A DNA stretch of 64,000 nucleotides, from assembly GCA_040112665.1 (NCBI GenBank), contig CP157796.1, forward strand, positions 2,319,501 through 2,383,500. Direction: 5' to 3'. This document shows positions 33,703 through 39,824 of this stretch, piece after piece. Below the pieces are notes generated by a model that saw nothing but the letters and a program-made list of their open reading frames with translations, made no database searches and had not been told where the DNA came from. A program made the position numbers and the translations under genes. Within the stretch, counting starts at the first letter, position 1, and every line of letters begins with the position of its first letter. The stretch is from Oceanicaulis sp. GTDB lineage: Bacteria > Pseudomonadota > Alphaproteobacteria > Caulobacterales > Maricaulaceae.

Positions 33703-36105
<2,403 letters not shown>

Positions 36106-37149: not shown

Positions 37150-37785
37150 TCACTCCACCCTGACCGTCTCGATCCTGACGGGCTCGACCAGGAACTGGGC
37201 GTACTGGAAGTCCTCCGGCGCGTTTTCGATGCTGGTCTCTCCGCTCCAGATCGTTTCGACCACGTCCATGCCCTCGATCACCTCGCCGAAGACCGCGTAG
37301 CCGAGTTCGTCGGGATTGCGGGTGCCCGGCCCGGCGTCGAGGCCCGGATAGTCGGCGACCATGATGAAAAATTCCGTCGTCGCCGTGCCCGGATCGAACC
37401 GGGCCATGGAGATCGCGCCTCGCTTGTGGCTGAGGCCGGTCTGGGTCGTGGGCTCGTGCGCGATGGGTTCGGCGCCGGACGAGCCGTCGAAATCGTAGCC
37501 GCCCTGAATGAGGCTCATCGGCTCGACGTCCGGCCGGTCGTTGTCGGGCCGCACCGAGCGGTAGAAGAGCCCGCCGTCATAGGCGCCGGCCTCGGCGTGC
37601 CGGACGAAGTTCGCCACCGAGATCGGGGCGGCGTCTTCGGCCAGCGCGACGCGGATGTCCCCGGCGCTGGTCTCGATGACGGCGGTGCGCGGGCCGGCGT
37701 CCGCGGCGGTTTCAGCGGGCGGTTCGGCGTCGGGCGTGCAGGCGGCCAGCGCGACGGCTGCGGCGAGCAGGGCGTAGTGTTGCAT
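37150..37785 (-). CDS. Cyclophilin-type peptidyl-prolyl isomerase, lipoprotein
   Basis: A 211-residue periplasmic isomerase anchored by a lipobox (signal MQHYALLAAAVALAAC, then an acidic Pro/Glu/Ala linker). The cyclophilin domain (about 38-210) shows FVRHAEAGAYDGGLFYRSV, IQGGYDFDG, KRGAISMAR, TEFFIMVADYPGLD and GYAVFGEVIEGMDVV. The usual FHR arginine-containing motif reads FYRSVRP, so the catalytic Arg is kept. Role: outer-membrane or periplasmic protein folding. Confidence 0.9.
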   Translation of the reverse strand: MQHYALLAAAVALAACTPDAEPPAETAADAGPRTAVIETSAGDIRVALAEDAAPISVANFVRHAEAGAYDGGLFYRSVRPDNDRPDVEPMSLIQGGYDFDGSSGAEPIAHEPTTQTGLSHKRGAISMARFDPGTATTEFFIMVADYPGLDAGPGTRNPDELGYAVFGEVIEGMDVVETIWSGETSIENAPEDFQYAQFLVEPVRIETVRVE

Positions 37786-37862
37786 GTCTCTCCCCCATGC
37801 GCCGGCCGGCGTGCTGACTCGGCGCTTTTCCTTTCTTCATTCTCTCATGCTAGATCGCGCGC

Positions 37863-38492
37863 ATGGACGACGCCATACGCCCCAAACGCCGGCGCGGCCG
37901 GCCGCCGCTGGGACCTGAACATCGCGAACGGCTGATCAGGGCCACGCTGCACCTTCTCGACCGCAAGGGTCTGGAGGGGCTGCAGGCGCGCCTGATCGCC
38001 GCCGAGGCCAAGCTGTCTGTCGGCTCGCTGTACAAGCTCGTCGGCGATATCGACGACGTGGCGCGCGAGGCGGCGCTTCAGACCTATCGCGCCCTTTACG
38101 ATCACGAGACGGCGATTTTCGCCACGGTGAAGGACCGGCCGGTCCGCGAGCAGCTTCTGGCGATGGCGCGCGGCTATGTCGAGTTCGTCAGCCGCCACGA
38201 GAAACGCTGGAGCGCGATCATCGCGCGCCGCCGCGCCGAAGGGCTGAGGCCGGAATGGTACGACGCGGCGGAAACGCGCATGTTCTCGCTGATCACCGAG
38301 CGGCTTTCGGAAGCCTTGCCCGGCGCGCTGGCCGAGCCCGACCGGCTGATGGCGGCCCGCGCGCTGTGGGCCGCGGTGCACGGCATCGTCACCGCCGCGA
38401 GCCATGACGACGGCGACCCGGCCGAGCAGGAGGCGATGATCACGCTGATCATCGACGGGGTTCTGGGCGAGCTCGCACGAAAAGCGGGTTGA
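37863..38492 (+). CDS. TetR-family transcriptional regulator
   Basis: A 209-residue repressor-type regulator. After a basic KRRRGRPP AT-hook-like segment (about 8-15) comes the HTH: LIRATLHLLDRKGLEGLQARLIAAEAKLSVGSLYKLVGD (about 20-60), with the usual SxGSLYxxxxxxxxL recognition-helix pattern. The C-terminal domain contains VEFVSRHEKRWSAII, typical of the WHG-domain group. Ligand and targets are unknown; the divergent cyclophilin gene 77 bases upstream is one candidate target. The stop lies just upstream of the pheA leader. Confidence 0.88.
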   Translation: MDDAIRPKRRRGRPPLGPEHRERLIRATLHLLDRKGLEGLQARLIAAEAKLSVGSLYKLVGDIDDVAREAALQTYRALYDHETAIFATVKDRPVREQLLAMARGYVEFVSRHEKRWSAIIARRRAEGLRPEWYDAAETRMFSLITERLSEALPGALAEPDRLMAARALWAAVHGIVTAASHDDGDPAEQEAMITLIIDGVLGELARKAG

Positions 38493-38524
38493 CCGGGAAA
38501 AGCCTGGCGGCTCATTCTTTGCCC

Positions 38525-38587
38525 ATGAGCACGGCGCGCACCTTCTTTTATGCGATCTATTTCACCGGCCCGCGGGGGACCGGCTGA
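38525..38587 (+). CDS. pheL: pheA leader peptide (attenuation)
   Basis: A 20-codon open frame reading MSTARTFFYAIYFTGPRGTG, with Phe at codons 7, 8 and 13 and Tyr at codons 9 and 12. It sits directly upstream of pheA and is followed by alternative RNA hairpins and a terminator, the standard layout of a Phe-controlled attenuator (compare the FFFAFFF leader of E. coli pheL, to which it is not similar in sequence). No strong ribosome-binding site is visible. Assignment rests on the clustering of aromatic codons and the structures around it. Confidence 0.75.
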   Translation: MSTARTFFYAIYFTGPRGTG

Positions 38588-38640
38588 CCACGCTCGCGCC
38601 GAGCCGATCAGTCTGCCCCCGCCCGAAAGGCGGGGGTTTT
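38565..38640 (+). promoter_or_regulatory. Transcription attenuator of pheA
   Basis: Mutually exclusive pairings are readable. Hairpin 1:2 has CCGG (38565-38568) with CCGG (38580-38583) plus CCC/GGG inside. The antiterminator 2:3 has GCGGGGG (38572-38578) with CCCCCGC (38616-38622). The terminator 3:4 has CCCCCGCC (38616-38623) with GGCGGGGG (38629-38636) and a CGAAA loop, then TTTT. A ribosome stalled at codons 7-9 of the leader would leave region 2 free to pair with region 3 and allow pheA transcription. Confidence 0.75.
38616..38640 (+). terminator. Attenuator terminator upstream of pheA
   Basis: Perfect 8-bp stem with a CGAAA loop, followed by TTTTCGTTT. It lies 24 bases before the pheA start and after the leader peptide stop, so it is a regulated rather than a gene-end terminator. 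Confidence 0.85.
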
Positions 38641-38663
38641 CGTTTGCGGGGAGCCTTCGACCG

Positions 38664-39824
38664 ATGACCGAGACCAGAGACGACCGCGCCGCGCTGAGAT
38701 CGGCGATCGACGCTGCGGACCGCGAGCTGCTGCGCCTTCTGGCCGACCGCAGGCGGCTGGGTGAGGCGCTGGGCGCGCTCAAGGCCGGAGAAAGCACGCC
38801 GGTGCGCGATCTCGAACGCGAGCGCGACGTGATCGACCGGGCGATGACCGCCGGCCGCGCGCAGGGGCTCGATGCAGGCTTTGTCGAAAAGCTGTTCCAG
38901 CTCATCATCGACGACAGCCTGCGCCGCCAGCGCGACGGTCTGGACGCGCGCGCGCACGGCCGCATGCTGACCGAGGCGCGGGTGGCGTATCTGGGCGGGC
39001 CGGGCAGCTATTCGCATTTCGCAGCGCACGCGCACTTTTCCGGCCGGTACTCAGGGCTGTCGCCGGTGATCAAGCGCGACTACGCGGCGGTCTTCGGCGC
39101 AGTGGAGAGCGGCGAAGCCGATTACGGCTTCCTGCCGATCGAGAACACCTCCACCGGCGGCATCGTGGAGGTCTACGACCTGTTGCGCGACACCAGGCTA
39201 AAGATCGCCGGCGAACGTCATCACCGGGTCGAACACGCGCTTTTAGGCAAATCGACCGATCTGGGCGCAGTGCGCACGGTCTACGGTCACGCCCAGGCGC
39301 TGCGCCAGGCGCAGATCTGGCTGAACGCCCGGCCTGAACTCAAAAAGGTCCCGGTGGCCTCGAGCACCCGCGCGCTCGAACGCGCGCTCGACGAGGGTCC
39401 GACCGTGGCTGCGGTGGCGGGGCCGGAAGCGGCGGGCCTGTTCGGTCTGAACGTGATCGAGCCGTCGATCTCCGATCATCCCGGCGCACAGACTCGATTC
39501 GTGGCGCTGGCGCTCGATCCCGAACCGGCGAGCCCGCTTTTGCCGTGCAAGACCTCGCTTGTGTTCGTGACCTCCGACGAGGCGGGCTCCCTGGTCGACG
39601 CGCTGGACGGGTTCAGGGCCGAGGGCGTCAATCTCACCAAGCTTGAAAGCCGGCCCGTGGCGGGCGCGCCCTGGGAGCAGATGTTTTTCCTCGATTTCGA
39701 AGGCCATGAAGAGGACGAGCCGGTCGCCCGCGCGCTCGCCCGGCTTCAGGGCCACGCCAAAAGCGTGCGCAGTTTCGGCTCCTACGGCTCGGACCGCTTG
39801 AAGCCCGCCGCACGCGAAGGCTAA
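38664..39824 (+). CDS. pheA: Bifunctional chorismate mutase / prephenate dehydratase (P-protein)
   Basis: A 386-residue enzyme of phenylalanine synthesis. Residues about 5-90 are an AroQ chorismate mutase (LRSAIDAADRELLRLLADRRRL), about 105-280 the prephenate dehydratase (VAYLGGPGSYSHFAA, FLPIENTSTGGIVEVYDLL, the catalytic Thr in QTRFVAL), and about 290-370 an ACT domain with the Phe-binding ESRPVAG motif, so the enzyme is feedback inhibited. The ATG at 38664 has GGGGAG upstream. Expression is probably set by the leader-peptide attenuator just upstream. Confidence 0.96.
   Translation: MTETRDDRAALRSAIDAADRELLRLLADRRRLGEALGALKAGESTPVRDLERERDVIDRAMTAGRAQGLDAGFVEKLFQLIIDDSLRRQRDGLDARAHGRMLTEARVAYLGGPGSYSHFAAHAHFSGRYSGLSPVIKRDYAAVFGAVESGEADYGFLPIENTSTGGIVEVYDLLRDTRLKIAGERHHRVEHALLGKSTDLGAVRTVYGHAQALRQAQIWLNARPELKKVPVASSTRALERALDEGPTVAAVAGPEAAGLFGLNVIEPSISDHPGAQTRFVALALDPEPASPLLPCKTSLVFVTSDEAGSLVDALDGFRAEGVNLTKLESRPVAGAPWEQMFFLDFEGHEEDEPVARALARLQGHAKSVRSFGSYGSDRLKPAAREG

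Follow-up and report, generated by a model that had tools for sequence, protein, structure and literature searches.

The attenuator before pheA in Gammaproteobacteria, for which we take the pheL-pheA system of E. coli as the example, consists of a short aromatic leader ORF and a terminator that precede a fused chorismate mutase-prephenate dehydratase gene. In the classical logic of leader-peptide attenuation, a ribosome that arrives at the stop codon covers the antiterminator strand, as opposed to a ribosome that stalls upstream. Caulobacter crescentus, which belongs to the same bacterial order as the Oceanicaulis sp. genome analyzed here, contributes leader peptides of this type closer to the present lineage. 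Leader-peptide attenuation of pheA has already been published for Shewanella (PMC2659441). Among Alphaproteobacteria, the attenuator RNA of S. meliloti trpL is reported to begin with the AUG of its leader peptide, so that a leaderless leader-peptide mRNA is already known (PMC10117765); the ilvBN and ilvIH leaders of C. crescentus carry tandem codons for two amino acids, and 375 leaderless mRNAs have been mapped in this species (PMC4117421).

The regulatory codons of an attenuator are usually taken to name what its own operon makes. In the Oceanicaulis leader they seem to extend beyond this product by one pathway step, as a phenylalanine gene is preceded by Tyr codons in a genome where tyrosine is predicted to be derived from phenylalanine. 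We consider it very probable that the site is a ribosome-mediated transcription attenuator of pheA in which Phe and Tyr codons are read from a probably leaderless mRNA, in a lineage that probably makes tyrosine via phenylalanine hydroxylase.

The pheA leader and its conservation

The window, a stretch of 64,000 nucleotides from the 3.08 Mb genome of Oceanicaulis sp. (G000), contains in this order a TetR-type gene (37863-38492), a 20-codon leader ORF (38525-38587), a terminator, and pheA (38664-39824, with its ATG at 38664); the leader, pheA, and all regulatory features described below lie on the plus strand. The 386 aa product of pheA is a fusion of chorismate mutase, prephenate dehydratase, and ACT domains, and its closest named relatives come from Oceanicaulis, Alkalicaulis, Marinicauda, Glycocaulis, and Euryhalocaulis, genera that presumably represent the family Maricaulaceae. 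Elsewhere in the genome, a second, short prephenate-dehydratase-like stretch (L222; G000:C1:1661542-1662114, minus strand) shares 32% identity with PheA residues 100-292; weak matches of this kind also occurred in 11 other genomes of the same genus (g1) in the search of 99 genomes.

The translated leader, MSTARTFFYAIYFTGPRGTG, starts with ATG at 38525 and ends with TGA at 38585-38587; its Phe codons (7, 8, and 13) and Tyr codons (9 and 12) are arranged as Phe Phe Tyr (38543-38551) and Tyr Phe (38558-38563). The 20-codon frame with three Phe and two Tyr codons that had been proposed from the sequence was therefore found as described, and it is conserved in relatives. Substitutions among close leaders, counted at codon positions 3/2/1 (181/157/126), show a mild third-position bias that by itself lends little support to a coding function.

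Taken as a single sequence, the site does not stand out beyond chance, since it contains one terminator-like site where shuffled sequences average 0.5, and its folding z-score is an unremarkable -1.28; both values would suit an accidental meeting of a hairpin and an aromatic-rich short ORF in GC-rich intergenic DNA. What lifts the site beyond chance is its conservation among relatives. The family search covered 137 genomes and found fused pheA in 51, a gene being counted as fused when its match began no later than query residue 10 and extended at least to residue 379. The Phe/Tyr leader and its terminator were kept in 46 of these 51 genomes, distributed over eight genera (complete leaders in 27 of the first 30 genomes and in 19 of the 21 added later), and the sequence part of the comparison by which the original prediction could have failed, the loss of aromatic codons or stems in relatives that keep pheA, did not refute it. 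Leaders were defined as ATG-initiated ORFs of 15-30 codons with at least three Phe or Tyr residues in 8 codons and with TTGAC within 38-31 bases 5' of the ATG; this combination was found in all 46 leaders vs. none of 67 regions upstream of stand-alone prephenate dehydratase genes, and without the promoter clause the ratio was 46/46 vs. 1/67. The 67 loci are those of 99 genomes less the 30 with a fused gene and less two (G004 and G045) without a usable match; in five of the 67 (G060, G064, G080, G084, and G096), the match is weak and partial, and the gene may be something other than pheA. One candidate leader before a stand-alone prephenate dehydratase gene, in G051, lacked the promoter spacing and was judged a chance occurrence; the reverse-strand control gave 4/67. 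The accidental origin is contradicted by this distribution and by the fixed promoter spacing detailed below; conservation renders it untenable, and its probability is negligible.

Among the five remaining fused-pheA genomes, the leader of G108 is truncated by a contig end and visible in part, and no leader was found in G005, G020, G036, and G109. In G005 (L247), a different coding stretch, AT-richer by eye, is located directly 5' of pheA where the leader is expected. In G036 and G020 (L248 and L249, part of genus g7), pheA follows directly 3' of a long gene that appears lon-like by eye, without a leader; the counterpart of this gene in the window, also named by eye, is the ORF at 33703-36105, which three further genes separate from pheA.

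At the level of the class, fused pheA (E up to 1e-60) was found only in the Oceanicaulis genome among 385 genomes drawn, a sample from which other fused-pheA members of the family were evidently missing and in which the fused gene is thus special to this family. The fused pheA may have been acquired by transfer, and the leader would then have evolved or been rebuilt afterwards.

Terminator, alternative pairing, and predicted leaderless start

A terminator search identified an intrinsic terminator (38615-38640) with a stem at 38615-38637 and a T-run at 38637-38640; eight of the nine stem pairs are G-C, and the T-run is followed by CGTTT. A hairpin followed by T residues is present in 46/46 relatives with a leader, and the terminator that had been placed just before pheA is thus both real at this position and conserved. 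The antiterminator strand (38571-38588), formed by the last leader codons and the stop codon, pairs with a partner strand at 38608-38624; within this duplex, GCGGGGG (38572-38578) is exactly complementary to CCCCCGC (38616-38622) of the left terminator arm, as the original prediction had pointed out. Two further structures emerge from minimum-energy folding: a leader-head arm (38532-38538) that can pair with 38595-38601 past the stop codon and shows weak co-variation, and a leader-tail hairpin (38562-38587), obtained from the window sequence alone, that would sequester the antiterminator strand when the leader is not translated.

Co-variation was examined by swapping pairing partners among the eight genera in all 40320 genus permutations and scoring the duplex energy. 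Partner swapping weakens the antiterminator duplex, from a native mean of -22.29 to -19.76 kcal/mol for the permutations, and the native value was reached by the native order alone among the 40320 permutations; as the genera are not fully independent, such permutation fractions are not exact probabilities. Considered separately, the stop-codon part of the antiterminator was equaled or surpassed by 185/40320 permutations and the G-run/C-run core by 376/40320, and displaced control pairings by 38724/40320 and 11519/40320. Support for the leader-head stem is weaker, with 39/40320 genus permutations as good and no gain in g1 or g14. The signal is uneven across genera: the stop-codon helix showed no native gain in g13, g7, and g9, and the G-run/C-run core none in g10, g14, and g15; in g9, foreign partners gave the tails a more stable duplex (-22.93) than the native one (-20.03). 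The length of the longest uninterrupted antiterminator helix was 6.87 in native and 6.86 in cross-genus pairings, without co-variation in the G-run/C-run helix length; the antiterminator, which overlaps both the terminator and the leader ORF, co-varies in duplex energy and not in longest-helix length.

The predicted -35 element TTGACC (38489-38494) overlaps the stop codon of the TetR-type gene, and the predicted -10 element CATTCT (38513-38518) was assigned by eye, without a score, from the aligned upstream regions. TTGAC starts 35-37 bases 5' of the leader ATG in 46/46 relatives with a leader, and a CAnnnT-like hexamer is visible by eye ca. 12 bases 5' of the ATG in most of them. In leaders with several in-frame ATGs, the start was assigned to the ATG that opens the conserved block, not to the ATG 12 bases upstream within the -10 region, and to the first ATG where two occurred in tandem; these choices were made before TTGAC was counted, with the upstream bases in view, and were therefore not blind for the 19 later leaders. 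A general sigma-70 scan of the site did not find a promoter, so that the promoter call rests on conservation. From the positions of the two elements, transcription would begin at the leader ATG or immediately beside it (at or next to 38525), which probably makes this mRNA leaderless. The near-absence of a ribosome-binding site, which had seemed odd when the leader was proposed, is not odd for a probable leaderless transcript, and the accompanying guess of a leaderless leader-peptide mRNA gains support from the promoter spacing shared by all 46 leaders.

From these features we infer the following switch. RNA polymerase would start at or beside the leader ATG, and the ribosome would load on the bare AUG. 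With charged tRNA-Phe or tRNA-Tyr scarce, the ribosome would stall in the FFYAIYF block and leave at least the distal part of the antiterminator strand free; the leader tail with its stop codon would then pair with the left terminator arm, and pheA would be transcribed. With both charged tRNAs plentiful, translation would proceed to the stop codon, where the ribosome would mask the leader tail; the terminator would then form, and transcription would end near 38640. If the leader were not translated, formation of the leader-head stem and the tail hairpin would let the terminator fold by default. The reading of the pheA leader as an attenuator gains support from the conserved ORF, the terminator, and the alternative pairing.

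As an alternative to attenuation, the short ORF could regulate by translation or encode a small peptide with a function of its own, and the hairpin could simply terminate an upstream transcript or release a small RNA, as rnTrpL and the peptide peTrpL of S. meliloti are reported to act in trans (PMC10117765, PMC7298713). We regard this alternative as highly improbable, since promoter, terminator, and pheA follow each other in this order on one strand, the promoter being conserved, and since a co-varying duplex joins the leader tail to the left arm of the terminator; a function in trans would add to attenuation and not replace it. By analogy with rnTrpL, the terminated RNA of ca. 116 bases could also act in trans in addition to its role in the attenuator.

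Tyrosine codons and the route to tyrosine

Across the 46 leaders, 143 Phe and 96 Tyr codons were counted; Tyr is present in 45 leaders, and the most conserved aromatic column, which contains the second Tyr of the Oceanicaulis leader, is Tyr in 40/46. Four leaders (L005, L006, L009, and L011) have two Tyr codons and one Phe codon. The reading of Phe by the leader, as originally proposed, is upheld; the proposal had not noticed that conservation of Tyr equals or exceeds that of Phe, or that TyrA is apparently missing from the Oceanicaulis genome. Taken together, Tyr conservation and the apparent absence of TyrA indicate that the switch probably senses tyrosine as well as phenylalanine.

The PDH_N domain (TyrA family) was not detected in the Oceanicaulis genome by a search that recovered it in 14/14 control genomes (13/14 in two other searches), and a search with the short TyrA of a relative, run without a positive control, gave no match either. 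Phenylalanine hydroxylase was found above the curated cut-off, and the genome therefore shows the gene pattern of hydroxylase-based tyrosine synthesis: TyrA undetected, hydroxylase present. The hydroxylase of g1 (L224; G000:C1:885914-886642, minus strand) was matched in two pieces without an internal stop; ca. 25 extra residues lie between profile positions 153 and 154, and other genera of the family gave a one-piece match. Canonical TyrA is absent from all fused-pheA genomes (PDH_N of at least 96 bits in 0/51 vs. 61/86 of the other genomes). Seventeen of the 51 encode a short, divergent TyrA-like protein (60-88 bits), namely 16 of the 19 genomes of g9 and G034, as do 13 of the 86 other genomes, all in g6; these counts were made by hand from the match list. 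Eight of the short proteins were read (L212-L219, from G034, G056, G022, G038, G049, G055, G035, and G046); they have ca. 240-265 residues vs. ca. 300 in canonical TyrA, and all contain the stretch HPLFGP, which we take to be a TyrA mark. The two that were scanned matched prephenate dehydrogenase models, above the cut-off for Pfam PDH_N and below it for NCBIfam. PDH_N matches scoring below ca. 34 bits were assigned to other dehydrogenases; two of these proteins (L220 and L221) resemble hydroxyisobutyrate dehydrogenases by eye.

Since the Oceanicaulis genome combines a phenylalanine hydroxylase with no detectable TyrA, PheA probably gates the supply of both phenylalanine and tyrosine, and the lineage probably makes tyrosine from phenylalanine by this enzyme. 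Tyr codons would then be read in the pheA leader because tyrosine is probably made from phenylalanine. A comparable gene complement is reported for Dyella japonica, with a fused CM-PDT, no good TyrA candidate, and a hydroxylase that is important in defined but not in rich media; a similar situation is reported for Legionella pneumophila (GapMind, PMC7311316).

Hydroxylase was found in 48 of the 51 fused-pheA genomes; those without a match are G034 (100% complete), G137 (65%), and G149 (69%). The leader of G034, MVSRGQFFGFSNASRPGGAA, is the only one without Tyr, and this genome has a short TyrA-like gene in addition to lacking the hydroxylase; its congener G017 has a hydroxylase, no TyrA, and three leader Tyr codons. 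G137 and G149 carry Tyr codons despite the missing hydroxylase match, which may reflect an assembly gap. Among the 43 leader genomes that are at least 89% complete, one lacks the hydroxylase and one lacks leader Tyr, and this is the same genome; the coincidence is suggestive of a link between hydroxylase and Tyr codons but counts as a single event. Genomes of g9 that have both the short TyrA and the hydroxylase still have leader Tyr codons, so that TyrA absence is not a strict condition for Tyr codons.

The hydroxylase could serve breakdown instead of biosynthesis. A purely biosynthetic role, argued from the absence of phenylalanine and tyrosine breakdown, fails on a weak HmgA-like match in the Oceanicaulis genome (G000:C1:2233141-2234025; 76.9 bits vs. 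a cut-off of 510.75); such weak matches occur in 30/51 fused-pheA genomes, none of them in g9, and in four other genomes, and true HmgA was found in one of the 137 genomes (G015). No leader was found 5' of the hydroxylase gene in the Oceanicaulis genome; leaders were sought at 31 hydroxylase loci, seven of them from fused-pheA genomes, and after one locus without the enzyme motif (L144) had been set aside, three of the remaining 30 (L115, L128, and L133) yielded weak leader candidates.

Two interpretations of the Tyr codons have to be weighed. The leader could sense phenylalanine only, with Tyr codons arising by neutral drift, as TTY and TAY are one base apart; pheA makes the phenylalanine precursor, Tyr codons persist in g9 although a short TyrA-like gene was found in 16 of its 19 genomes, and leaders found at 64 of 68 Shewanella fused-pheA loci are nearly pure Phe, with 323 Phe against 7 Tyr codons when the block is counted as far as its last Phe pair. 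Drift, however, would not hold one column as Tyr in 40 of 46 leaders from eight genera, nor would it maintain a Phe to Tyr balance such as the one counted here, or leaders with more Tyr than Phe, and we consider a Phe-only attenuator unlikely, though it deserves serious attention. We lean, with moderate confidence, toward a dual Phe/Tyr sensor whose Tyr codons were kept because the hydroxylase has replaced TyrA, so that the codons would record a rewired pathway; with the same moderate confidence, loss of the hydroxylase, as in G034, is expected to take the Tyr codons along. Within such a dual sensor, tyrosine may be the stronger input, judging from its status as the most conserved codon and from the four leaders with a Tyr majority. 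If the dual-sensor interpretation is true, leader peptides can provide evidence for pathway wiring that is not annotated, here for hydroxylase-based tyrosine synthesis in a marine alphaproteobacterial family.

Comparison with known attenuators

An Rfam scan of positions 37500-39500 up to E 10 returned eight matches, all below their gathering scores and none to an amino-acid-operon leader attenuator. Two of them overlapped the site and were rejected, Hrs1 on the minus strand (22 bits vs. a gathering score of 56.4) and anti-hemB on the plus strand (20.3 vs. 49.5 bits). A Phe/Tyr attenuator of pheA in Alphaproteobacteria had no earlier description among the matches listed in the literature searches; related predictions may be contained in the 2004 work of Vitreschak and colleagues, who reportedly compared attenuators across Proteobacteria. 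The Lactococcus lactis Leu/phe leader (RF01743) and the actinobacterial pheA motif, the latter without an Rfam number in the motif table of its source, are also candidate RNA motifs linked to phenylalanine (PMC2864571); unlike the present leader they belong to other phyla, and neither was among the Rfam matches.

The two alphaproteobacterial systems share the leader-peptide principle and differ in what they sense: S. meliloti trpL responds to Trp and controls trpE, and the C. crescentus leaders respond to Ile and Val and control branched-chain genes. The gammaproteobacterial pheL-pheA attenuator is alike in architecture and in the fused gene that it precedes; in contrast to the nearly all-Phe block in Shewanella, the leaders described here mix Phe with abundant Tyr, which all but one of them contain, and a leaderless start is predicted. 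The kind of attenuator is thus known, and the Oceanicaulis leader adds a likely leaderless case to those described in Alphaproteobacteria; what is unusual is the conserved tyrosine input on a phenylalanine gene, combined with the apparent absence of TyrA and with an mRNA that is probably leaderless.
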